In this document: positions 18,248 to 31,365 of the stretch, in pieces | Numbering within the stretch: the stretch's first letter is position 1 | Layout of the letters: every line of letters starts with the position of its first letter | Translations under genes and position numbers: made by a program | Notes under the pieces: model-generated | The model's database searches: none | What the model was told of the DNA's origin: nothing | Seen by the model: the letters and a program-made list of their open reading frames with translations, nothing else | Virus record (IMG/VR): IMGVR_UViG_3300047457_000542 | Location: 1 to 36,743 of that record | Direction: 5' to 3' (one strand) | DNA: 36,743 nucleotides | Source of the DNA: a virus

Positions 18248-18701
18248 CTTGCGTCTTGACGATCGCAATGCCCGCGTTCACACGCCACGGAATCTTGAGG
18301 CGCTGGTCGCAAGTCTTCGGAGGTTTGGTCAGCAACGACTTCCCTTGGTTGATTGCGACGGAGTTGTGATTGCTGGTAACGGACTTGTCATGGCGGCTCG
18401 GCAACTCGGCTGGCTACATATTGACATTTTGCGCACTGACTTGCGTGGCGACGAAGCGCGTGCGTATGCAATCGCCGACAACCGAACAGCCGAACTTGCG
18501 GAATGGGATCGGCCGCAGCTGATCGACACGCTGCGCTCAATCGATGACCCTGACTTGATCGCTGCATCTGGATTTTCGGAACAGGAGTTCCGCGCCTTTC
18601 TTGCGAACATGGATCCGCCGACAGAGTTCAAGGATGTAAGTGAACCTGCCGCGCTCGACACAAAATGCCCCCGCTGCGGCTTTGACTTTCAGTCGTCATG
18701 A
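18120..18701 (+). CDS. ParB/Srx-like domain protein of the modification cassette, 193 aa
   Basis: A low-complexity basic start (MPTKKSKTGH...) of about 35 residues precedes a ParB-like domain (38-125): VSLVDLRLDDRNARVHTPRNLEAL, then LVDCDGVVIAGNGLVMAARQLGW (GNG box at 86-88) and DEARAYAIADNRTAELAEWD. The end carries CPRC (C183, C186). ParB-like domains of this GN-type are frequently encoded beside or fused to phage DNA methyltransferases. Its exact action is unknown: DNA targeting, nicking, or an ATP-dependent chemical step as in the related Srx fold. The start ATG 18120 has GAGGAG about 10 bases upstream. The stop overlaps the next start (ATGA). Confidence 0.78.
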   Translation: MPTKKSKTGHTPTGLKRSSQPSEQGEQSSGEERRSIERVSLVDLRLDDRNARVHTPRNLEALVASLRRFGQQRLPLVDCDGVVIAGNGLVMAARQLGWLHIDILRTDLRGDEARAYAIADNRTAELAEWDRPQLIDTLRSIDDPDLIAASGFSEQEFRAFLANMDPPTEFKDVSEPAALDTKCPRCGFDFQSS

Positions 18702-19492
18702 AGCCTGACATCAGGCGCGTCCTACTCGAGTGGGCGTATGCCATCAATCATCATGAATGTGCGGTGTTGCTTTCGGGCGGCGTCGATTCTGCTGCCGTGT
18801 GCTTTGCACTTCAGGAGGTCGGCAAGACCGTCGTCGCATACACATTCACTCTCGATGATCGCGAGAGTTCTGACTTTCTCGCCGCAAAGCAAGTTGCGAG
18901 AGTATTGCGATGCGCTTGGGTTCCAGTGCGCCTTCCGACTTCAATCAAGGCATTGCAAGAGGACATGATCCGACTGAGAGATCTCGGTGCAAAGTCGAAG
19001 ACTGATTTTGAATGCTCGTGGCCAATGATTTACGCATATCACGCAGCAGCACAGACAGTAGTTTGTTCTGGCATGGGTGCGGACGGACACTTCTGCATTT
19101 CAAAGAAAGGCATGATTCACTACCGCGATCGCATCGACGAGTTTCGGATGAAACTCTACGGCTCTCGGACATATGCGCAGCAGCACTTGCACCGTGCGCT
19201 TGCTAATGAACATCAGAAGGTTGCCGAACTACCGTTCCTGCTTGAAAAAATGAAAGCCGAGTTCATCGGCACAACTTGGGATCAACTGAACAAGCCAAAA
19301 CAAAAGCAGGCGCTGCTCGACGCCTTCCAGACTGAGTTCAAGAACATCAGAGTGCGTCCTCATACAAACTTGCAACTCGGAGACAGCGGCATCTCTGCGC
19401 ACATTGCGAAACTGCTTCGATCGGAGTGGAACTACCGTGGTCATCGTTCTGTAGTTGGCATTTTCAATCAACTGGTGGCGCGTGCATTATGA
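18698..19492 (+). CDS. Asparagine-synthetase-like PP-loop ATP pyrophosphatase, 264 aa
   Basis: The P-loop-like SGGVDS (26-31) identifies an adenylate-forming PP-loop enzyme. The later SGMGADGHF (124-132) corresponds to the SGxGxDExFGG box of asparagine synthetases, so I place it in that clade rather than with QueC, TilS or sulfurtransferases. The N-terminal glutaminase domain of AsnB, with its catalytic Cys2, is absent. The enzyme would adenylate a carboxylate and let ammonia or another amine attack. The second half is a charged helical region. ATG 18698 overlaps the previous stop (ATGA). Local GC is lower than in neighbouring structural genes, suggesting recent acquisition. In this cassette a carboxymethylated base is the plausible substrate. 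Confidence 0.82.
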   Translation: MKPDIRRVLLEWAYAINHHECAVLLSGGVDSAAVCFALQEVGKTVVAYTFTLDDRESSDFLAAKQVARVLRCAWVPVRLPTSIKALQEDMIRLRDLGAKSKTDFECSWPMIYAYHAAAQTVVCSGMGADGHFCISKKGMIHYRDRIDEFRMKLYGSRTYAQQHLHRALANEHQKVAELPFLLEKMKAEFIGTTWDQLNKPKQKQALLDAFQTEFKNIRVRPHTNLQLGDSGISAHIAKLLRSEWNYRGHRSVVGIFNQLVARAL

Positions 19493-20532
19493 AACCGACA
19501 TACGCGATTCCGACGATGGCTGAGATTCGACGGATTCCGTGGAACGGCTTGAAGGTTGTGAGTACCTTCAGTGGATGCGGCGGCTCATCGACGGGATACA
19601 AGATGGCTGGATGTCGCGTGCTTGGAGCGAGCGAGTTCATTCCGGTTGCGGCAGAAACCTATCGGGCAAATCATCCTGATACCTACCTCGACACGAACGA
19701 CATACGCACCTTGCAGGCTGACAAGTTCATGGACGCAATGAACCTGCAGCCCGGAACTCTTGACATTCTTGACGGATCGCCGCCGTGCTCGTCCTACAGC
19801 ACCGCTGGTAAGACAAGCGAAGGATGGGGCAAGGCGAAGTTATACAGCGGATCTGTCAAGCAACGAACTGATGATCTGTTTGATGAGTTCCTACGATTGC
19901 TCGCTGCGATTCAACCGCGCGCATTTGTAGTCGAGAATGTCGCTGGGCTCGTGCGCGGCGTAAGTCGCGGCGTCTTTTCGGAGGTCATCTCGGCAATGCG
20001 CGCAGCAGGCTACCGAGTCGCATGTCGGGTGCTCGATGCGCAATGGCTTGGCGTGCCACAACGGAGAGCGCGCACTATCTTCATTGGTCTGCGAACGGAT
20101 CTCGGGGTTGCGCCGCAGCATCCAAAGCCGTTCCCACATCGTTACACGCTCGCGGAAGCACTGGACTGCGACGCTGGCGATACATCCGACGCATCGATTG
20201 ATCGGTTTGCGATTGGGAGAGAGTGGGAGCGGCTCGGTCGGCCCGGGACACAAAGTGACAAATACTTCTCTCTTGTCCGCCCGCGACTTGATGAGCCATG
20301 CCCGACCTTCACGGCTGTGAGGCACGGTGCTGCGAAGGTTGTGCACCCGACAGAAAAACGAGGCTTCACGATCAACGAGCTGAAGCGCATCGCTGGCTTT
20401 CCCGCCGACTATGTCTTCACTGGTACATACGATGAGCAACAAGAGCGAATCGGCAGAGCAGTACCGCCTCTCATGATGAAGGCAATCGCTCTATCCGTCG
20501 CTGCACAACTGAAGGAGAGCAATCATGTCTGA
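19489..20532 (+). CDS. Cytosine-C5 DNA methyltransferase homologue with altered motif X (candidate carboxymethyltransferase), 347 aa
   Basis: The motifs of a C5-MTase are in order: I, FSGCGGSSTGYKMAG (28-41); IV, GSPPCSS with catalytic C100; VI, VVENVAGL (E149); VIII, QRRART (191-196); IX, TINELKRIAGFPADYVF; and X, GRAVPP (322-327). The target-recognition region between VIII and IX is short. Motif X is normally GNxVP; here R323 (codon 20455-20457) replaces the Asn that lies near the methionine part of SAM. An Arg there could bind the carboxylate of Cx-SAM. ATG 19489 overlaps the previous stop, and the next gene overlaps by 8 bp. An ordinary methyltransferase is the main alternative. Confidence 0.9.
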   Translation: MKPTYAIPTMAEIRRIPWNGLKVVSTFSGCGGSSTGYKMAGCRVLGASEFIPVAAETYRANHPDTYLDTNDIRTLQADKFMDAMNLQPGTLDILDGSPPCSSYSTAGKTSEGWGKAKLYSGSVKQRTDDLFDEFLRLLAAIQPRAFVVENVAGLVRGVSRGVFSEVISAMRAAGYRVACRVLDAQWLGVPQRRARTIFIGLRTDLGVAPQHPKPFPHRYTLAEALDCDAGDTSDASIDRFAIGREWERLGRPGTQSDKYFSLVRPRLDEPCPTFTAVRHGAAKVVHPTEKRGFTINELKRIAGFPADYVFTGTYDEQQERIGRAVPPLMMKAIALSVAAQLKESNHV

Positions 20533-21265
20533 CTCGCGAGATCATCAGGTTGACGGTCGCTGGGAGTTTGATGAGAAGGTCGGCATAGTCTTCGACGACA
20601 TGGTGCAGCGTTCTGTTCCGCTCTATGACCAGACGCTTGATCTGCTGGGGCGGATTGCAATGCGGCACTGTCCTGCGGGCTGCCAGTCAACGATCCTTGA
20701 TCTTGGATGCTCAAACGGTCAAGCCTTGCATCGCATCATGAGTGTCGCGGCAAACGAAGGTGCTGCAAAGACGCGCACGCTCCGATTCATTGGCGTGGAC
20801 TCGCAGGAACACATGCTGACGAGATTGAGTGGCAAGTTCGGATCCGCGATCGAAACGCACATGCACGACCTGCGCTATCCCTTGCCGTATCGGATCGCTT
20901 CGTGTAGCCCGCGCGTTGTTCTTCTGCTATGGACGGCGCAGTTCATACCGTTAGAGCATCGCGCACGACTGTTCGCAGAGATCCGAAAGACCATCGCTCC
21001 TGATGGATGCTTGCTCGTCGCTGAGAAGTTGCGCGGGCAGACTGCGGCGTTCCAAACCATGATGTCGCACGAGTATGCGATGTGGAAGCAGCGCGTTGGT
21101 GGTTACTCGGCAGAATCGGTCGAAGCCAAGGCACGATCGCTTGAAGGTGTGCTTGTGAGCCTGACGGCCCCAGAGATGAAGCAGAGCCTGCAAGCAGAAG
21201 GCTTCGCGGTCGAGGAGGTCACACGCTACTTGGGATTTGCTGCGTACTATGCGTTGCCCAAATGA
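20525..21265 (+). CDS. cmoA: CmoA-like carboxy-SAM synthase homologue, 246 aa
   Basis: The sequence aligns along nearly its full length with bacterial CmoA, by my recall of the E. coli protein. Matching segments are FDEKV..VFDDMVQRSVPLY (15-34), DLGCSNG (59-65), GVDSQ (90-94), the TAQF strand (138-140), a VAEK strand, GGYS and KARSLEGVL (202-210). The first segment is specific to CmoA rather than to general methyltransferases. CmoA converts SAM plus prephenate into Cx-SAM. In the ungapped C-terminal alignment the carboxylate-binding Arg199 of E. coli falls on Ala203, with Arg204 next to it, so activity must be tested. The start ATG 20525 has AAGGAGAG upstream. It is the last gene of the cassette. 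Confidence 0.85.
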   Translation: MSDSRDHQVDGRWEFDEKVGIVFDDMVQRSVPLYDQTLDLLGRIAMRHCPAGCQSTILDLGCSNGQALHRIMSVAANEGAAKTRTLRFIGVDSQEHMLTRLSGKFGSAIETHMHDLRYPLPYRIASCSPRVVLLLWTAQFIPLEHRARLFAEIRKTIAPDGCLLVAEKLRGQTAAFQTMMSHEYAMWKQRVGGYSAESVEAKARSLEGVLVSLTAPEMKQSLQAEGFAVEEVTRYLGFAAYYALPK

Positions 21266-21526
21266 CAACACGGATAGGGGTCTGGAAAGTATGTCCGCAG
21301 ATGTTGGAGACCGGCGCGCGCTCTCTCACGCGCGTATGCGCAGAACTTTCACTTTTCGGTCGCTGCGCCGACTAGCGCTGGCTCCCGGGCGCGACAAGCA
21401 CCACGCTGCCCTAGCAGGCACTCGCAAGCGCCGACGCGCCTACGGGCCTCCTACTGCGTCAGGCGGCCTGTGCCCGGAGAGGGTTTTGCACCGTGTGGAT
21501 CTCTTGCTCGTGAGAGAGGCTTTCGC
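21266..21526. other. 260-bp non-coding region before the terminase genes
   Basis: I find no gene with a ribosome site here. It includes a GC-rich inverted repeat (CGCGCG, loop CTCTCTCA, CGCGCG, near 21325-21344) and a C-rich stretch. Lying directly upstream of the small terminase gene, it is a reasonable place for a packaging site (pac or cos) and a late promoter, but no signature proves either. Confidence 0.4.
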
Positions 21527-22003
21527 ATGAACGGCAGACCGCCGAAGCCGCAGGCACTTGCCGCCCTGTCAGGTGATCGTCGCCGCAAGGGCAAGGGCAT
21601 GGACTTGCCGCTTGCTGTGCCCGATGTCCCTGACTGGTTGAGCGAGGAAGCCAAGACGGAGTGGGCCACGGTGACGCATCTGCTGTCCACGATGCGCGTG
21701 GTCAGCGAAGTCGATTCCATCGCGCTCGCGCAGTTGGCTGACTATATGGCGAAGTGGAAGCGAGCAGCCGAGCAGGTCAGCAAGATCGGCATGGTGATCC
21801 CGATTCGCGATGCTGCGGGCACTGTGACAGGCTTCCGACGCAACCCGTATGTGACGATGCACCTTGAGTACGGCTTGATGGTGCAGCGTTTGCTCTCGCA
21901 GTTTGGTATGACTCCCTCGGCTCGTGCAAGGTTGATGAATGGCGAAGCGCAAGCAACCGACAACATCTTCAGCCGGATCGCCAGCGTTCAAGTCTCCGGC
22001 TAG
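21527..22003 (+). CDS. terS: Small terminase subunit, P27 family, 158 aa
   Basis: The N-terminus MNGRPPKPQALAALSGDRRR matches the RPPKPTALKxLxGN opening of P27-type small terminases. The pattern of a Pro-rich segment (VPDVPDWLSEEAKTEWATVTHLL), central helices and an NPY.TMHLEYG.M...L..FGMTPSARARL C-terminal region is also typical. It recognises the packaging site and loads the large subunit. The start ATG 21527 has GAGAGG about 8 bases before it. The large terminase start lies inside its 3' end (65-bp overlap), a usual arrangement. Confidence 0.88.
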   Translation: MNGRPPKPQALAALSGDRRRKGKGMDLPLAVPDVPDWLSEEAKTEWATVTHLLSTMRVVSEVDSIALAQLADYMAKWKRAAEQVSKIGMVIPIRDAAGTVTGFRRNPYVTMHLEYGLMVQRLLSQFGMTPSARARLMNGEAQATDNIFSRIASVQVSG

Positions 22004-23600
22004 CGGCGCGCTCGCGTTCAATCGACTGCCGAACTACGACGCAATCGCGACGGCAGGTGATTGTGTCTGGTCAGAGGCATCGGCGCAGCACGCGCTGCGG
22101 TTCATCGAGTCGATGTGCAGGCACACGATGGGAGAGAAGACAGGCAGCGCGTTCAAGTTGCTTGACTGGCAGCGTTGCTTCGTGGCGAATCTGTACGGCT
22201 GGCTTCGACCGGACGGCTCGCGTCGATACAGACAGGCGCATCTGCTCGTGCCTCGCAAGTCTGGCAAGACAGAACTGGCTGCCGCGCTCGCGCTCTATCA
22301 CCTGCTAGCAGATGACGAGCCGACGCCTGAAGTCGTCGGCATCGCGCGCGATCGCGAGCAAGCGCGGCTCTGCTTCCAGCGTGCGTGTCGAATGGTCGAG
22401 CAGGAGCCGCGAATGCGTGAGCGCGTTGAGTTCTTCCAGTCGCGCGTGACAGCGCCAGCGACTCATGCGCTCTACAAGGTTCTTTCGAGCGACGCGCCCG
22501 GCGCGCACGGCTTGAATGTGTCAGCCTGTATCGCGGACGAGATTCACGCGATGGAGAATCGGCGCGATCTGTGGGAGGCAGTGATGACATCGATGGGCTC
22601 ACGAAGGCAGCCGATGATGGTCAGCATCACTACGGCTGGAACGCTTCGCGAGTCGCTGGAGTTCGATCTGTTCACCTACGCGCAGAAGGTCTGTCAGCGC
22701 GTCATCGACAACCCGTCTTTCCTGCCGTGTCTCTACTACGCCGATGCCGAAGCAGACTGGAAGTCGCCGGAGACATGGCACAAAGCAAATCCAAGTCTCG
22801 GCGTCACAGTGCGCCCTGACTGGTACGAGACTGAAGCGAAGCGCGCACAGGATCAACCGTCCTACGAGTCGCCATTCAGGACTTACTACCTCTGCCAGCA
22901 CATCACGACGAGCGAACGATGGCTGCGGATGAGCGATTGGGACGCCTGCGGTGATGTCATCGAGGAAACCGCGCTGGAGAATCTGCCGTGCTATCTCGGT
23001 CTCGATCTCGGGCAGACAAGCGATCTCTCCTGCATCGCAGGAGTGTGGATCGACGGCGAATCGTTGTATGTGAAAGTCTGGTCTTACGCGCCCGAGGAGG
23101 GTGCAATCGCGCGAGCGCGCCGCGACGGCGTGCCGTATCTCGACTGGTCGCGCGCGGGATGGCTGACGCTGACGCCGGGCGACACCACCGACTACGCCTA
23201 CATCCGGCAGCAGGTGCTGGACATTGCGAAGCGGCACAAGGTTCGCATGGTCGGGTTCGATCCCTACAACGCGCAGAACCTCGGCAACGAGCTGGACGCC
23301 AAGGGGCTGAAGGTTGTCCGCGTGCCACAGTCCTACCTCAACCTGTCAACGCCGACGCGAATGTGGGAACGCGCAGTTGTCGGTAAGACGCTGCGACACG
23401 ATCGCAACCCGGTACTCTCGTGGGCAATGAGCAATGTGGTCGTGGAGCAGGACTTTGCAGGCAACGCGCGCCCGAGCAAGCGCAAGAGCGTCGAGAAGAT
23501 CGACCCAGTGGTTGCTGCCGTTGTCGCGATCAGTGCAAGTCTTCACGACGAAAAGATGGCGGCAAGCCCCTACGAGAAGCGAGGACTGATATGGCTGTGA
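21939..23600 (+). CDS. terL: Large terminase subunit, HK97-like (Terminase_1), 553 aa
   Basis: The ATPase domain has Walker A PRKSGKT (105-111) and Walker B with catalytic acid in CIADEIHAM (198-205), followed by the coupling segment SITTAG. The nuclease domain begins about residue 355 with CYLGLDLGQTSDLS (metal-binding Asp) and continues to VGFDPYNAQNL and the final KIDPVVA. It cuts the concatemer and drives DNA into the prohead. ATG 21939 has AAGG seven bases upstream. The portal ATG overlaps its 3' end by 10 bp. Confidence 0.95.
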   Translation: MAKRKQPTTSSAGSPAFKSPASGALAFNRLPNYDAIATAGDCVWSEASAQHALRFIESMCRHTMGEKTGSAFKLLDWQRCFVANLYGWLRPDGSRRYRQAHLLVPRKSGKTELAAALALYHLLADDEPTPEVVGIARDREQARLCFQRACRMVEQEPRMRERVEFFQSRVTAPATHALYKVLSSDAPGAHGLNVSACIADEIHAMENRRDLWEAVMTSMGSRRQPMMVSITTAGTLRESLEFDLFTYAQKVCQRVIDNPSFLPCLYYADAEADWKSPETWHKANPSLGVTVRPDWYETEAKRAQDQPSYESPFRTYYLCQHITTSERWLRMSDWDACGDVIEETALENLPCYLGLDLGQTSDLSCIAGVWIDGESLYVKVWSYAPEEGAIARARRDGVPYLDWSRAGWLTLTPGDTTDYAYIRQQVLDIAKRHKVRMVGFDPYNAQNLGNELDAKGLKVVRVPQSYLNLSTPTRMWERAVVGKTLRHDRNPVLSWAMSNVVVEQDFAGNARPSKRKSVEKIDPVVAAVVAISASLHDEKMAASPYEKRGLIWL

Positions 23601-25195
23601 CACTCTGGCAAAGGTTCAAGTCGCTCCTGCAGCCCGGTCAGCCGATCGCCACGCCGCAGGTCTACACCGGGACATTCAGCGACACGGGACAGAATGTCAC
23701 GCCGACTGTGGCGATGACTTGCACCACGGTCAACGCTTGCGTGCAGGCGATTGCTACCGAGATCGCGAAGTTGCCTTGGAGCGTACTGAGCCTGCGAAAC
23801 AATGGGCGCGTCGTTGCGACAGATCACCCCGTTCACAACTTGCTGCGGCTCGCGGCCAACTCCGAGTGCACTGCGCTCATGTGGCGCGAACTGATGCTGT
23901 CGAGCGCATGCCTCACGGGAAACGGTTACTCGCTGATCGTGCGGGATGCCGCGGGGCGTCCGACTGCACTGCACTACCTGCGGCCCGATCTGATGCAGAT
24001 CGTTCGCATGGGCGGTGGCGAGATCGCTTACATCTACAGCGGCGCAGAAGGAAAGCAGGTGTTCAGCAGCATGGACATCTTCCACCTTATGTGGATGAGT
24101 CCGGACGGCCTGCTTGGCTATAGCCCGATCAGTCTTGCGCGGCAGGCCATTGGCCTCGCCATCGCGCAGGAGACTTTCGGCGCCTCCTACTATCGCAACG
24201 CGAGCAGACCTTCAGGTGCGCTTGTCACCGATCAAGAACTTTCGGCTGACGCCCTTCAGCGGATTCGTGAATCGTGGGAGCAGCGAATGCGTGGCGTCCA
24301 GCAGGCGGGCTCGGTCGCTGTCCTCGAAGGTGGCCTCAAGTGGCAGCCGATCAGTCTCTCGCCAGAGGATTCGCAGTGGTTGCAGTCGCGAGAGTTCCAG
24401 CGCGAGGAAATCTGTGCCATCTTCCGTGTGCCACCGAGCGTGCTCGGCATTGGACAGAAGCAGTCCTACGCAAGTGCAGAGCAGGCGAATCGCGAGTGGG
24501 TGTCGGGTTGTCTGTCTTCTTGGAGCGCGCGCCTTGAGGCTGAAGCACAGAGAAAGTTGTTGCGAGCAGACGAGCCCTTCTCGACCGAGATCAGTTTCGA
24601 CTCGCTGCTGAAGAGCGACTTGATGACTCGGTTCCAGACCTTCAGCATCGCGCGGCAGTTTGGCTTCTTGAGTGTGAACGAGATTCGGGCAGAGTTGGGC
24701 CGCGCCAGCATCGGGGAAGCGGGAGACGCATACCTGCAGCCCGTGAACATGGTCCCGGTGAGCAACGCCTTCGGCGGCGCACAGGTGCAACAGCCTCTGC
24801 CAGATGTCGAGGCATTGCCTGACGAGCCGGTCGAAGATGTGGAGGCACAGGACACCGAAGAGCGTGCGGACGGATTCAAGCCGACCGCCGGCATGGTGGC
24901 CGAAGCGAAACGCGGGCTGGCGTGGCGCAGCGAGTTCGGTAGGGGCGGCACGCCTGTCGGTATCGCACGGGCTCGCGACATCGTGAACGGGCGCAACCTG
25001 CCGCTCGCGACGGTCAAGCGGATGTTCAGTTTCTTCTCGCGCCACGAGGTCGACAAGCAGGGCAAGGGCTTCACGCCGGGCGACGGCTTCCCAAGTAATG
25101 GCCGCATTGCTTGGGCTCTCTGGGGCGGTGACGCAGGCTTCAGTTGGAGCCGCAAGATCGTTGAGTCTGCGGCTAGCAAGAAGAATGCGAAGTAG
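23591..25195 (+). CDS. HK97-family portal protein with extra C-terminal domain, 534 aa
   Basis: Residues about 1-400 are a typical HK97-type portal: an early VNACVQAIATEIAKLPWSV segment, HPVHNLLRL, GNGYSLIVRD, YLRPDLMQ, FHLMWMSPDGLLGYSP, and IFRVPPSVLG near residue 280. Residues 430-534 form a distinct module beginning KPTAGMVAEAKRGLAWRSEF and containing RHEVDKQGKGF and GRIAWALWGGD. I have the impression this segment exists as a free-standing or fused domain in other phages, with unknown function. The acidic linker at about 395-430 supports a separate domain. The start at 23591 overlaps the terminase end. Confidence 0.92.
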   Translation: MAVTLWQRFKSLLQPGQPIATPQVYTGTFSDTGQNVTPTVAMTCTTVNACVQAIATEIAKLPWSVLSLRNNGRVVATDHPVHNLLRLAANSECTALMWRELMLSSACLTGNGYSLIVRDAAGRPTALHYLRPDLMQIVRMGGGEIAYIYSGAEGKQVFSSMDIFHLMWMSPDGLLGYSPISLARQAIGLAIAQETFGASYYRNASRPSGALVTDQELSADALQRIRESWEQRMRGVQQAGSVAVLEGGLKWQPISLSPEDSQWLQSREFQREEICAIFRVPPSVLGIGQKQSYASAEQANREWVSGCLSSWSARLEAEAQRKLLRADEPFSTEISFDSLLKSDLMTRFQTFSIARQFGFLSVNEIRAELGRASIGEAGDAYLQPVNMVPVSNAFGGAQVQQPLPDVEALPDEPVEDVEAQDTEERADGFKPTAGMVAEAKRGLAWRSEFGRGGTPVGIARARDIVNGRNLPLATVKRMFSFFSRHEVDKQGKGFTPGDGFPSNGRIAWALWGGDAGFSWSRKIVESAASKKNAK

Positions 25196-25199
25196 TACC

Positions 25200-25808
25200 A
25201 TGCCAGCCATGCACGAGATCGAATATCGCGCCGCGCGTCAGATCGAACTGCGTGAAGCAGTCGAGGGCCAGCCGCTCGAACTGCTCGGCTATGCCTCCAC
25301 ATTCGATGCGCCCTATGAAGTCGACGGCATGACCGAGACGATCGCGCGTGGTGCGTTCGAGCGAACGCTTCGCGAGAAGCCTGATGTGTTCGCATTCATC
25401 GGGCACGATCCGAATCGCGTGATTGCACGCACGACGAATGGCTCGCTCGCGCTCCAGCAGGACGGGCATGGCCTCAAGGTCGTGCTGCGACCTGTCGATA
25501 CACAGGACGGGCGCGACGCCGCAACACTGGTCCGAACTGGCACGCTCGACTCGATGTCGTTCGGCTTCCTCGTCAAGGACGACTCGATCGAGATGCGAGA
25601 CGGTCGTCTGCATCGTGAGATTCGCGATGTCGAGTTGCATGAGGTGAGCATCGTTGCATTCCCTGCGAACGCGAATGCCCGCATCTCAACCCGAGCGCGC
25701 GAGCGGGCAGACGAACTGATTCGCGAACAGCGGAAGTCGAGTCGCAGGGTGTTCCTGCCGCCGTTCCCGCTTGCCGAACTGAGGAGCCCCACGAATGGCA
25801 CTGTCTAA
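25200..25808 (+). CDS. HK97-like prohead (capsid maturation) protease, 202 aa
   Basis: The family pattern is clear: LLGYASTFDAPYEVDGMTETIARGAF, FIGHDPNRVIART (H69 of the active site), GLKVVLRP, TGTLDSMSFGF (S118 or S120 as nucleophile) and HEVSIVAFPANANA. The enzyme cuts the N-terminal delta domain of the capsid protein during prohead maturation. The start ATG 25200 is five bases after the portal stop; ATG 25209 is possible. The C-terminus overlaps the next gene by 14 bp. Confidence 0.92.
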   Translation: MPAMHEIEYRAARQIELREAVEGQPLELLGYASTFDAPYEVDGMTETIARGAFERTLREKPDVFAFIGHDPNRVIARTTNGSLALQQDGHGLKVVLRPVDTQDGRDAATLVRTGTLDSMSFGFLVKDDSIEMRDGRLHREIRDVELHEVSIVAFPANANARISTRARERADELIREQRKSSRRVFLPPFPLAELRSPTNGTV

Positions 25809-26847
25809 CAACGCGAACCAGAGCGGCACTCACCTTGCTCCGCGAGCGATTGCGGAGCAGGTCTGGACTCGTCTCTATGACACCTTCCCGATGTCGCTCG
25901 TGAGTCGTGGTACTGGTCCGCGCGGATTCCGAGTCGCGACTACAGCAGCACCATCGAACGGCGCCCCAGATATTCCATCCAGCGAAGGCCAGTCGTTCGC
26001 CACGAACTTTGATCCAACCTTCGAGCAGGTCGCTTTCGATATGACAACCTATCGTGCGAAGGTTGTCATCTCCAACGAACTTGCTGCCGACAGTCGTGTC
26101 GTTGAGTTCATGACTACACGACTCGCAGGACAACTCGCCGAAGCAGTCGGCCAAGGCATCATCCAGACGATTGCCGCGACACTTCAAGGCGAGTCGCGAT
26201 ACACCGAGGCTGATCACTTCGATGTGGGCGAAGTGGGCGCAACCTCCGGCAACCCGAAGATTCTGAACCACAGCGGCTTCAGGTGCTTGTCGAACTTGAG
26301 CAACATTCACCGCTCGCGAGCCTGCTGGGTCTTCAGTCCAGACGGCTTCCGCAATTACGGCACGCAGGAAGGTCGCGGCAACTTGGTGACGCTCGGCATT
26401 CGGCAAGAGGACTACATTTATGGTCGCCTGATCGGTGAGGGCAGCGCGACTGCGAACGAAGTTGTCGTGCCGCTACAAGGCGGCGGTGGTGGTGGCGGCA
26501 AGGGTGGAATCGAAGGCGAAGGCGAACTCGCGAAGAACCTCGGGCTGCAACTGCGGTCGCGATTGGTTGGCCGCTCTCCGACCAGTGACTCATGGCACAC
26601 CGCCTACCTCGGCTGTCCGATCTACACCTCGACAGGTCTGGCGGACACGCACAACGCCAGCGACGGCGTGTGGGCCATGCTCGTCGATCTGTCGCAGTTC
26701 ATGCTCTTCGATCAGCCGCTGTCGGTGCATGTAGACACCGAGAGCCTCATCGCGAATAATCAGACCGTGGTGCACGCCATGTATCGCAACACGGGCCAAC
26801 TACTTGACCCAACCGCCGGATGGGGACTCGTGTCACCTTCCGTCTAA
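25795..26847 (+). CDS. HK97-fold capsid-type protein lacking a delta domain, 350 aa
   Basis: The protein resembles the mature part of HK97-type major capsid proteins. VVISNELAADS parallels LVSNELIADS of the next gene, RACWVFSPDGF parallels GACWVMSDEMF, and YLGCPIY parallels LLGYPVY. It starts directly at the capsid domain with no coiled-coil scaffold region. A glycine-rich insertion (residues about 228-240) interrupts it. With the 26869 gene this makes two tandem capsid-type proteins. It may form special capsomers, a hexamer/pentamer variant or a minor shell component. The ribosome site GAGGAG is at about 25781-25786. Confidence 0.82.
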   Translation: MALSNNANQSGTHLAPRAIAEQVWTRLYDTFPMSLVSRGTGPRGFRVATTAAPSNGAPDIPSSEGQSFATNFDPTFEQVAFDMTTYRAKVVISNELAADSRVVEFMTTRLAGQLAEAVGQGIIQTIAATLQGESRYTEADHFDVGEVGATSGNPKILNHSGFRCLSNLSNIHRSRACWVFSPDGFRNYGTQEGRGNLVTLGIRQEDYIYGRLIGEGSATANEVVVPLQGGGGGGGKGGIEGEGELAKNLGLQLRSRLVGRSPTSDSWHTAYLGCPIYTSTGLADTHNASDGVWAMLVDLSQFMLFDQPLSVHVDTESLIANNQTVVHAMYRNTGQLLDPTAGWGLVSPSV

Positions 26848-26868
26848 CACCCAAACAGAGGAACAGAA

Positions 26869-28206
26869 ATGCCACAGGACGGAATGACTGACGAGAAGAA
26901 GAAGATGAGCATCCGAGAGATCACTGACGCGATCGGCAGTCTCTACGAGAGCATGAAGGCCCTCGTGACCAACTCGCAGGACAACGGCGAGCCCATGACT
27001 GGCGAGCAGGAGGAGCAGTACGCGCGGATGAACTCGCGCCTGACCGACCTGATCAAGATGCGCGATCAGCACTACCGTCTTCTCGATGCCGCTACGCAGG
27101 CCCAGCGCGCGATCGACAAGTCTGTCGAGACGATCTCTCGCGAGCGCTCGACGAGCGACACTGGCAAGAAGCGCGGCGAGGCTCTTCGCAACTTCCTCCA
27201 GACCGAGGAGTATCGGAGCGCCTTCAACCGCTACCTGACCGTCGGCAACGACCTGCGACCGGACGAGGCTCGTGCGCTCTCGGAGGGCACGGACTCGGCG
27301 GGTGGCTACCTGCCTGCTCCCGAGTTCCTCTCGACGCTGATCGAACTGCGTTGGGAAAACAATGTCTTCCGTCAGATCAGCAATGTCATTCCGCTCGGCA
27401 CCTTCGAGACGGAGATCGTGCTGGAGGGTGGAACCTTCCCGGTGGCGACCTACGAGACCGAAGGCACGGCCAAGACCGCCAGCGATCCGAACTTCGCCAA
27501 CCTCGTGCTGACGCCGAAGACCATGCGCTGCTTCACGCTCGTGAGCAACGAACTGATCGCGGATTCGCCCACGCGTGGCCCGTCCTTCAACATCGAGTCG
27601 ATCCTCGCGCGTCAGTTTGGTCGCGTGATGGGCGCGAAGGAAGAAGTCTCGTTCGGCAACGGTAACGGCAGCGGTGCGAATCCGAAGGGGTTCTTCACAT
27701 ACACGGCCAATGGCGAGATCGGTGCCTACACGACGGCCGCAAAGAGCACCGTGACCATCGCGGATCTGCAGGGCATCGTGTCCTCCCTGAAGCGCCAGTA
27801 TCGCGATGGCGCGTGCTGGGTGATGTCCGATGAGATGTTCTGGAAGATCCGCAACTTCCTGATGGTCGGCACGGCTGGCACTCCGACTGGCGGCAATTAC
27901 GCGCCGTTCGCTTGGAGCCTTGGCGATGGTCGTCTGCAGGATGGCGAGCCCGATCGCCTGCTCGGCTATCCGGTCTACTGCTGCGCCACTGGCGCAGTCC
28001 CGGCCTACGCCGATGGCGCTGTCGTGGCTGGCTTCGGCAACTTCAAGGACTACTTCCACATCGGTGAGCGCGAAGGCATCTCGATCAAGGTGGCGCGCGA
28101 GACCTATCTCGCGAACAACCAGACGGGCTACTTCGCGTTCGCGCGGCACAACTGCGTGCCGTCGGTCTACGAAGCGTTCAAGCACCTGAAGATCAAGGCC
28201 TCCTGA
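26869..28206 (+). CDS. HK97-family major capsid protein with N-terminal delta domain, 445 aa
   Basis: Residues 1-135 are a charged coiled-coil scaffold (delta) region. The capsid domain follows: SEGTDSAGGYLPAPEF, FPVATYETEGT, LVSNELIADS, VSFGNGNGSGANPKGFF (the usual nucleotide-loop-like FGNG..P.G segment), DGACWVMSDEMFWKIR, and DRLLGYPVYCCATGAVP. The delta region should be removed by the upstream protease. ATG 26869 follows AGAGGAAC. A strong hairpin follows 20 bases after the stop, consistent with a highly expressed gene. Confidence 0.95.
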   Translation: MPQDGMTDEKKKMSIREITDAIGSLYESMKALVTNSQDNGEPMTGEQEEQYARMNSRLTDLIKMRDQHYRLLDAATQAQRAIDKSVETISRERSTSDTGKKRGEALRNFLQTEEYRSAFNRYLTVGNDLRPDEARALSEGTDSAGGYLPAPEFLSTLIELRWENNVFRQISNVIPLGTFETEIVLEGGTFPVATYETEGTAKTASDPNFANLVLTPKTMRCFTLVSNELIADSPTRGPSFNIESILARQFGRVMGAKEEVSFGNGNGSGANPKGFFTYTANGEIGAYTTAAKSTVTIADLQGIVSSLKRQYRDGACWVMSDEMFWKIRNFLMVGTAGTPTGGNYAPFAWSLGDGRLQDGEPDRLLGYPVYCCATGAVPAYADGAVVAGFGNFKDYFHIGEREGISIKVARETYLANNQTGYFAFARHNCVPSVYEAFKHLKIKAS

Positions 28207-28267: not shown

Positions 28268-28501
28268 ATGAGAGTCCGATTCAACGACGCCGCGATGCTC
28301 GATCTAACTGGTCTGCCGATGCTTGTGCAGGCAGGACAGACGGTGAACATCGACTCGTCGCTCGCGAAGCAACTGATTCGCAGCGGGCTTGCGGCAGCCA
28401 TTCCTGAGACGACCGACGCTCGAAGCGAAAGGAGCCACGCGTGTACGCCGTTCCAACAGTCCGATGCGCGGAGACAAGTGCGCCAGCGTCCGAGCCAGTA
28501 A
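28268..28501 (+). CDS. Small protein between capsid and connector genes, 77 aa
   Basis: The N-terminal 50 residues read like a compact domain (MRVRFNDAAMLDLTGLPMLV, QAGQTVNIDSSLAKQLIRSG, LAAAIPE). This style of short protein with a final G-L-A segment is frequent between capsid and connector genes. The last 20 codons (28441-28501) overlap the connector gene in another frame and are rich in Arg, Gln and Ser. There is no good ribosome site, and the gene starts right after the hairpin. Function is unknown. Confidence 0.55.
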   Translation: MRVRFNDAAMLDLTGLPMLVQAGQTVNIDSSLAKQLIRSGLAAAIPETTDARSERSHACTPFQQSDARRQVRQRPSQ

Positions 28502-29040
28502 CGCTGGCGGAAGCAAAGGCGCACCTGCGCGTCGACTACGCGACTGAGGATGCCTACATCTCAAGCCTGATCGTCGCGGCTCGCGAATACTGCGAGCAGA
28601 TCACGGGCCGAGCGTTCGCCCAGCGGAACTTCATCGCGACCCTCGACGAGTTTCCAGCGCGCGGCGCGGACATCGTTCTGCCTCGCGCTCCGCTCGTTAG
28701 CATCCTGACCTTTGTCTATCGCGATGGAAACGGCACGGCGATCACGATGACGGTGAACACTGATTACAGAGTGAGCACGAACATCATCCCGGGCCGCATC
28801 CGGCGTCCGCTGACGAGCACCTCATGGCCGACAGCGGCTCGCATTGACGACGCCGTGCAGATCACTTTCGTAGCCGGAGCCGCGTCTGCGCCTGCGACAG
28901 CCAAGCAGGCAATGCTGCTGCTAATCGGGCACTGGTTCGAGAATCGCGAGTCGGTTGTGCAGGGCACAATCTCGACCGCCGTGCAGACGACCACACGCGC
29001 GCTGCTGTCCGTGCTTCGGCTTGGAGATGTTGCGCCGTGA
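28441..29040 (+). CDS. Head-tail connector (HK97 gp6-like), 199 aa
   Basis: The opening [41 protein letters not shown] is the hallmark of the phage connector family (gp6-like, DNA-packaging adaptor). The C-terminal part has [32 protein letters not shown], also typical. It forms the ring beneath the portal. The start GTG 28441 has AAAGGAG (28428-28434). The stop overlaps the next start (GTGA). Confidence 0.88.
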   Translation: [199 protein letters not shown]

Positions 29041-29366
29041 AGTCTGGCGCGCTGAACAAGCAAATCGGCCTTGTCGCTCGAAGCACATCGGTCGATGTCT
29101 ATGGGCAGCGCGTGGAGTTGTCGGGCACGGAATACACGCGCTGGGCATCCGTCAAGGAACTGCCAGCCGAAGAGCGGCAGATTGCGGAGGGAACGGCGCG
29201 CATCAGGCGCATCGAGATCATCATTCGCGCTCCAATCTCTGACCTGCCGAACATCGACACACGCTGGCAGGTGTCTTACGACGGGCGCTACTACGACATC
29301 ACGAGCATCATCGATCCAGACGGCTACAACCGCGCTCGGCTCATTCATGCGGAGTCCGACCAGTGA
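29037..29366 (+). CDS. Head-closure / head-tail adaptor protein (SPP1 gp16-like), 109 aa
   Basis: The sequence has the small beta-barrel adaptor pattern: LNKQIGLVARSTSVDVYGQ, EYTRWASVKELPAEERQIAEGTARIRRIEIIIRA, WQVSYDGRYYDITSIIDPDG. The family seals the connector after packaging. Length and position (between the gp6-like and gp10-like genes) fit. GTG 29037 overlaps the previous stop and the next gene starts within its stop region. Confidence 0.85.
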   Translation: MKSGALNKQIGLVARSTSVDVYGQRVELSGTEYTRWASVKELPAEERQIAEGTARIRRIEIIIRAPISDLPNIDTRWQVSYDGRYYDITSIIDPDGYNRARLIHAESDQ

Positions 29367-30411: not shown

Positions 30412-30855
30412 ATGGCAGCATTGCAAGGCGCGCAGTGGAATGACGGGACGCTCTTCCTGAACGGTATCGGCATCGTCGTCACATCAATGACGATGAACGG
30501 CTTTAGCACAAGCGACATCGAAACTGCGACGCTCAGTAGCACCTCGAAGGGCTATATCCAAGGCACTTTCGACGGCGGCACAATCGAGGTGCAGGGGTAT
30601 TCCATACCGCGTCCAGGTTTCAACGCGGGCGACCCGAAACTGGTGCTTCCGACGGCTGGCGACAAGACACCGACTCCATTTGAGTTCTTTCTCAGCAACC
30701 CCGAGGCACCAATCTCGGGTCAGTTCTATCCGCTCTTTGCCGGTGAAGCGTATGTGCAGTCACTTTCAATCGAAGCCACAGTCGACGATGTCGTGCGGCT
30801 GACATATGTCCTGCGAATCACGGGCGAACTCGTTCTCGATGTCTACTCAATCTGA
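30412..30855 (+). CDS. Tail-tube-type protein 1, 147 aa
   Basis: The protein is nearly all beta strand, with ...VVTSMTMNGFSTSDIETATL, YIQGTFDGGTIEVQG and a C-terminal VVRLTYVLRITGELVL. It parallels the next structural gene (STSEIDVTAL, GHLDGGTVEV, ITATYTLRISGTVTL), so the two are paralogues of the tube-forming fold. AAGGAAACGAC before ATG 30412 is a good ribosome site. Either the two proteins share the tube or one is a specialised tail component. Confidence 0.8.
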   Translation: MAALQGAQWNDGTLFLNGIGIVVTSMTMNGFSTSDIETATLSSTSKGYIQGTFDGGTIEVQGYSIPRPGFNAGDPKLVLPTAGDKTPTPFEFFLSNPEAPISGQFYPLFAGEAYVQSLSIEATVDDVVRLTYVLRITGELVLDVYSI

Positions 30856-30945: not shown

Positions 30946-31365
30946 ATGCCAGCCATCAGTAGCGTCGGAACATCGTTCACCACAGGCACCTCGGACATCA
31001 AGGGCTCTATCACCGCCATCAGCATCAGTGGCATCTCGACCTCCGAGATCGATGTCACGGCACTCAGCGACACGAACAAGACCTATGTCATGGGCCACCT
31101 TGACGGCGGTACGGTCGAAGTCACGGTGAACCTTGAAAGCGCAGCAGCAGGCCCGTTGGTGAGCATGCCTGTTGCGGGCGATGCGTCGCCAACCAATTTC
31201 GTCCTGAAGTTCGGTACTGGCGCTGCAAGCGCGTTGGTTCCGACTTTCACCTTCAGCGCCTTCATCCAGAATGTGAGCGTTGAAGCGAATGTGGACAGTC
31301 AGATCACGGCGACCTACACGCTGCGCATCAGCGGAACCGTGACGCTGGGCACCGCGTCCAACTGA
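30946..31365 (+). CDS. Tail-tube-type protein 2 (likely major tail protein), 139 aa
   Basis: It has the same fold and key motifs as the 30412 gene: ITAISISGISTSEIDVTALS, MGHLDGGTVEVTVNL and ITATYTLRISGTVTLG. Its length is typical of tube monomers. AAAAGGAAACCC precedes ATG 30946. It is directly followed by a strong terminator, as expected for an abundant structural gene, so I favour it as the main tube protein. A 90-bp gap between the two paralogues contains no feature I can name. Confidence 0.83.
   Translation: MPAISSVGTSFTTGTSDIKGSITAISISGISTSEIDVTALSDTNKTYVMGHLDGGTVEVTVNLESAAAGPLVSMPVAGDASPTNFVLKFGTGAASALVPTFTFSAFIQNVSVEANVDSQITATYTLRISGTVTLGTASN

Follow-up and report, generated by a model that had tools for sequence, protein, structure and literature searches.

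The viral DNA analysed here, IMG/VR record IMGVR_UViG_3300047457_000542 (36,743 nucleotides, referred to below as the window), carries two tandem genes for HK97-fold capsid-type proteins, which we call capA and capB. A 127-bp direct terminal repeat is present at its ends, which makes it very likely that the window represents the whole genome of a phage, of ca. 36.6 kb. A check of the open reading frames (ORFs) placed both genes on the plus strand at the coordinates given in an initial annotation made from the sequence alone: capA at 25795..26847, encoding a polypeptide of 350 amino acids, and capB at 26869..28206, encoding 445 amino acids. They belong to a head operon with the order TerS-TerL-portal-protease-CapA-CapB-adaptor. 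The capA gene has an ATG start, a good Shine-Dalgarno sequence (energy −8.4) and a start region that shares 14 nt with the 3' end of the protease ORF; capB also has its own Shine-Dalgarno sequence, and the energies of the two are similar and uninformative on stoichiometry.

CapB is a canonical HK97-type major capsid protein (MCP) with an N-terminal delta-type domain. It matches the PF05065 Phage_capsid family at 140.6 bits (cut-off 24.2) over residues 145-441 and phrog_10, 'major head protein', with an E-value of 8e-63. Relatives of CapB occur in 384 phage records, and its sequence relatives in the PDB are the capsid structures of a gene transfer agent (GTA), 6tb9 and 6tba. The delta-like scaffold part comprises approximately residues 1-105 (26869..27183, plus strand), as delimited by the residues that precede the Pfam domain and by alignment of short and long gene copies. 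CapA also matches phrog_10 and PF05065, the latter at 35.5 bits with the domain starting at residue 12. The much later start of the Pfam domain in CapB than in CapA agrees with the earlier observation that only the second protein carries a delta-type domain; alignments of short and long copies revealed such a domain in no member of the CapA family. The start of CapA lies at or just inside the position that matches the mature N-terminus of CapB.

When the CapA protein of the window and two divergent CapA sequences were used as tblastn queries against 50,697 annotated phage records, no match was found, and neither the CapA sequence nor the family profile matched any PDB chain. A pattern scan across the genomes of 84,980 bacterial and archaeal species revealed no relatives of CapA or CapB. 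A single-sequence AlphaFold prediction of CapA had a predicted local distance difference test (pLDDT) value of 33, and the model used here was obtained by AlphaFold2 with 18 CapA homologues. This model has a confident N-terminal helix, E-loop strands, a spine helix of 33 residues and a P-domain, with 103 residues at pLDDT 70-90. Foldseek searches with it retrieved HK97-type capsids with a probability of 1.0, for example HK97 Head II (E 6e-8) and the capsids of Mycofy1 (3e-8) and D3 (2e-7). The predicted core matches HK97-type capsids, and a non-HK97 fold of the first protein, which the initial annotation had named as an outcome that would speak against its proposal, was not obtained.

The motifs that the two proteins share reflect homology and not chance. 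In a single BLASTP comparison CapA and CapB were 30% identical over the segment SNEL..ACWV (E 1e-6), with a second matching segment at LG.P.Y...NNQT. Comparison of the CapA-family and CapB-family profiles gave a probability of 97 and an E-value of 9.6e-11 over 241 columns, which is essentially the full length. Identity across the aligned domain is ca. 21%, and ten columns (T, SNEL, D, G, E, N, R) are both conserved and identical in the two families. The glycine-rich insertion (GGGGGGGKGGIEGEG, 26479..26523, plus strand), located in the region equivalent to the A-domain and ahead of the motif LGCPIY, is indeed confined to CapA in the window, but alignments showed that it is lineage-specific and not a trait of the CapA family: it varies in length, occurs only in the subgroup of window-like CapA sequences, and is absent in L027 and L029-L034.

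Loci of the clade were collected by IMG/VR scans and then read, and contigs were counted where both gene positions are visible. In 33 of 33 such contigs, all of uncultured phages, capA is located directly upstream of capB, so the search for the pair in related genomes proposed earlier had a clear result. Some of the 33 contigs are near-copies of one another (L010/L011, L020/L021 and L004/L005), and contigs with one gene only (L014-L016, L019, L069, L071 and L072) end at that point. The data strongly support that CapA and CapB are two HK97-fold capsid-type proteins that are kept paired in related genomes. Pairwise ratios of nonsynonymous to synonymous substitution rates (dN/dS) are 0.12-0.43 for CapA and 0.13-0.44 for CapB, and both genes are under purifying selection. 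In relatives where CapA is 72, 54-57, 43 and 20-27% identical to the window protein, the corresponding values for CapB are 82, 60-63, 54 and 53-57%, the last class of each series being the comparison with L027-L034. Judged from these sequences, CapA is a retained and functional gene, because it is conserved as part of a pair with dN/dS well below 1, and it diverges faster than CapB. The faster divergence would also be expected of a decaying duplicate or a remnant left by replacement of the capsid gene. This explanation is extremely improbable, since CapA is intact in every contig over a very wide range of divergence, its dN/dS is low, the motifs SNEL.AD and D.ES...NQ are conserved, and the gene has its own Shine-Dalgarno sequence. 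A reading of CapA as a relic or chimera was likewise rejected on account of its retention in the 33 contigs and its dN/dS range. Among close relatives, the CapA of L003 is nearer to that of L006 (94%) than to that of L004 (92%), whereas its CapB is nearer to that of L004 (95%) than to that of L006 (90%); such discordant nearest neighbours among L003, L004 and L006 indicate that recombination has occurred between capA and capB.

Conservation is distributed differently along the two proteins. The mean pairwise identity among CapA sequences is 0.17 in the A-domain, 0.36 in the E-loop return and spine and 0.39 in the final part of the P-domain, whereas the values for CapB are higher and more even (0.57-0.72). 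In addition, the CapA proteins of L036 and L070 and of L059 and L065-L067 carry inserts of 60-75 amino acids, of two kinds, at the tip of the E-loop, for which no Pfam match above threshold was found. Such inserts, together with the fast divergence, resemble what is seen in surface-exposed accessory-type proteins, and capA usually adjoins the portal and protease genes. CapA could accordingly be a minor HK97-fold component of the head, present in few copies at one special place such as the portal ring or in an outer, decoration-like layer. The regions that CapA preserves best, the P-domain and spine, are those that make lattice contacts, and we know of no precedent for an HK97-fold protein solely at the portal vertex or as outer decoration; we consider such a role distinctly unlikely. 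The same constraint on the lattice-contact regions, and the strict linkage to capB in the head operon, argue against a CapA that acts outside the mature shell, whether as a decoy, as a regulator of assembly or as the product of a capsid gene that is retained for a different purpose. The lack of a delta domain would be compatible with an assembly regulator, but a non-virion or assembly-only role is improbable.

In HK97-type geometry the A-domain makes intra-capsomer contacts and lines the capsomer axis. The different conservation of this domain in CapA and CapB therefore points to different contacts at the capsomer axis, which argues for homomeric CapA capsomers and not for free mixing, and suggests that CapA forms rings of its own. 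A mixed shell would have CapA and CapB within the same capsomers, in a ratio that is either constant or variable, and would resemble the two-component encapsulin of Streptomyces lydicus. The combination of different CapA and CapB alleles among close relatives, seen in L003, would fit such an arrangement. The two proteins are just ca. 21% identical and differ most in the domain that makes the intra-capsomer contacts, and a head that holds pressurised DNA probably tolerates random tiling less; we regard a mixed shell as unlikely.

The head probably contains two different shell subunits. On balance, and with modest confidence, we favour a model in which CapA assembles together with CapB as an additional shell protein that lacks a scaffold and is in that sense 'born mature', with pentamers similar to those of gp24 in phage T4 as the best guess for its location. 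CapB would act as the ordinary MCP, the delta-type domain of which scaffolds the procapsid and is presumably cut off by the S78 protease encoded upstream of the pair, as judged from the HK97 paradigm. CapA, starting at or slightly inside the point of the mature N-terminus, would need no processing and would join the procapsid lattice on the scaffold provided by CapB. There it may occupy a small, specific set of positions, with the vertex pentamers as the likeliest, which would leave the E-loop tip (the site of the extra domains in sister lineages) and the A-domain free to vary. Pentamers are favoured because of the gp24 precedent and because CapA keeps the lattice-contact regions and not the A-domain. 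We infer from these data that both proteins are present in the virion, that they co-assemble, that CapA takes the vertex positions and that only CapB is cleaved.

Several points weigh against this assignment of CapA. The vertex position rests on the analogy with T4 and on the A-domain argument, and a separate pentamer protein is not required, given that in most phages a single MCP forms the pentamers as well as the hexamers. The weak conservation of the A-domain may partly reflect misalignment, as the alignment of this domain among distant CapA sequences is uncertain. The CapA model is of low confidence overall, with a mean pLDDT of 52, its A-domain is unmodelled and template modelling (TM) scores are ca. 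0.3-0.5, which does not allow oligomer geometry to be judged. Finally, the CapA members L054 and L033 taken alone score below the Pfam threshold.

Two further groups of relatives harbor tandem capsid genes, in addition to the clade of the window (group I). The more distant group II comprises six contigs (L075-L080) with CapB proteins that are 30-32% identical to that of the window. As in the window, its short HK97 gene lies between the protease gene and the long HK97 gene; the L080 contig does not extend to the protease position. The short copy begins with YAEIYRTYLRRGARGLTDVEARALS..GGT, parallel to EEYAAAFEKYLRNGEYTGPSEMRALS..GGT in its long neighbour, and looks like the long gene minus its delta part. 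In group III (L090, L099, L113, L114/L115 and L120) a long copy also lies beside a delta-less copy, but the order is reversed, with the long copy first, and the copies are 43-47% identical in the cases measured. Many other relatives with visible flanks, for example L037, L081, L088, L089 and L101-L103, possess a single HK97 gene. In a tree of 70 rows, the CapA sequences fall on one side of a branch with support of 99/97, and the CapB sequences likewise (91/90). Group II copies join their counterparts (short 96/94, long 99/99), whereas the group III copies are placed together elsewhere, and the duplication in group III appears to be more recent and independent. The sub-groups of CapA and CapB broadly match, which points to co-inheritance. 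A single origin for all short copies was rejected by the approximately unbiased (AU) test (p 0.0115), and the delta-less second capsid gene therefore has at least two independent origins. For groups I and II the tree joins the short copies (96/94), yet the AU test rejects no alternative (p 0.13-0.28).

A head with two kinds of HK97-fold subunits has previously been established mainly for phage T4, in which gp24 forms homo-pentamers and gp23 homo-hexamers; these are a distantly related HK97-fold pair with a reported identity of 17% (PMC12407261). The window resembles T4 in that two distinct HK97-fold proteins are encoded by one phage, with a similarly low identity of ca. 21%. T4 is a large myophage, the prolate head of which assembles on a scaffold protein of its own, whereas the window is a genome of ca. 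36.6 kb with head genes of the HK97/GTA type, a scaffold that is fused to CapB only, and a capA gene that sits between protease and capB. No sequence homology to gp23 or gp24 emerged from the PDB searches with CapA and its profile or from the tblastn search of the phage records, and CapA may work like gp24 yet is not placed in the gp24 family. In the open literature, to which our search was confined and which excludes subscription papers, no phage other than T4 was found to have a duplicated capsid gene or a pair of HK97 major capsid genes.

Co-assembly of two shell proteins has been demonstrated for the Family 2B two-component encapsulin Sl-Enc1/Sl-Enc2 of Streptomyces lydicus (PMC12407261). 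Similar to capAB, its two HK97-fold shell genes are located in one operon. Unlike a phage head, an encapsulin serves the cell as a compartment for cargo; it has neither a portal nor a protease and packages no DNA. Encapsulin operons are marked by a cargo enzyme and the lack of phage head genes, whereas terminase, portal, protease, adaptor and tail genes flank the pair in the window, and the PDB search gave no encapsulin match for CapA or its profile. Further comparable systems are the 'Ca. Heliusvirales' records PV036426, PV036460 and PV036414, which are related to the window in TerL, portal and MCP. These three annotated phages possess a CapB-type MCP with an N-terminal domain, and their protease, portal and head-tail adaptor genes occur in matching order, but a single MCP gene directly follows the protease, without capA. 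HK97 gp5 and the GTA capsids of the Rcc01687 type share the fold and the PF05065 domain, and sequence similarity of CapB to Rcc01687 is detectable; in these systems, unlike the arrangement proposed here, one gene product forms both pentamers and hexamers.

The remaining head genes surround the pair. TerS, named from its position, starts at 21470 and TerL at 21939. The portal protein (23420..25195, plus strand) matches PF04860 at 325 bits, and the prohead serine protease of the S78 family, expected to act in capsid maturation (25098..25808, plus strand), matches PF04586 at 135.6 bits and phrog_80 with E 3e-55. Downstream of CapB follow a head-tail adaptor (28441..29040, plus strand; PF05135, phrog_442/phrog_40), a head closure gene starting at 29037 and a tail completion gene starting at 29363. 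In L066, L067 and L068 the prohead protease is located ca. 3 kb downstream of capB and not directly upstream of capA, so that the capA-capB pair stays joined though its neighbour moves. In L010/L011/L019 and L016 the portal reading frame continues for several hundred residues after position ca. 446, before the C-terminal domain, and further ORFs follow; a repeated motif NCGTGAGGFQPGN.CAKGG precedes the domains of this extension, one of which is, by eye, a candidate ADP-ribosyltransferase-like domain. L020/L021 have an additional tube-like ORF between portal and protease (5009-5371 in L020). The window also has two tandem genes of the major tail protein type (30412-30855 and 30946-31365, both phrog_158), which are doubled in most relatives as well; the tail-tube gene is thus duplicated in the same genome as the capsid gene. 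Upstream of the head operon, 18698-19492 encodes a phrog_26038 protein with a weak QueC-like match, possibly involved in nucleotide or DNA modification, followed by a C5-cytosine DNA methyltransferase (19489-20532) and a second methyltransferase (20525-21265). This methyltransferase pair is 99.6% identical in L013, while the capsid genes differ by 18-30%.

In summary, a second HK97-fold gene is retained throughout a clade of small phages, and a comparable pair arose independently in a distant group. More tentatively, we suggest that small tailed phages may have evolved two-subunit HK97-fold heads at least twice, by duplication of the capsid gene and loss of the delta domain to give a 'born mature' vertex subunit, with optional domains at the E-loop tip. 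Automatic annotation may call either gene of such a pair 'major capsid protein', and caution is required. The pairs are natural sets of paralogues with which one may ask how one fold is tuned for pentamers or hexamers and why only some subunits need a scaffold domain.
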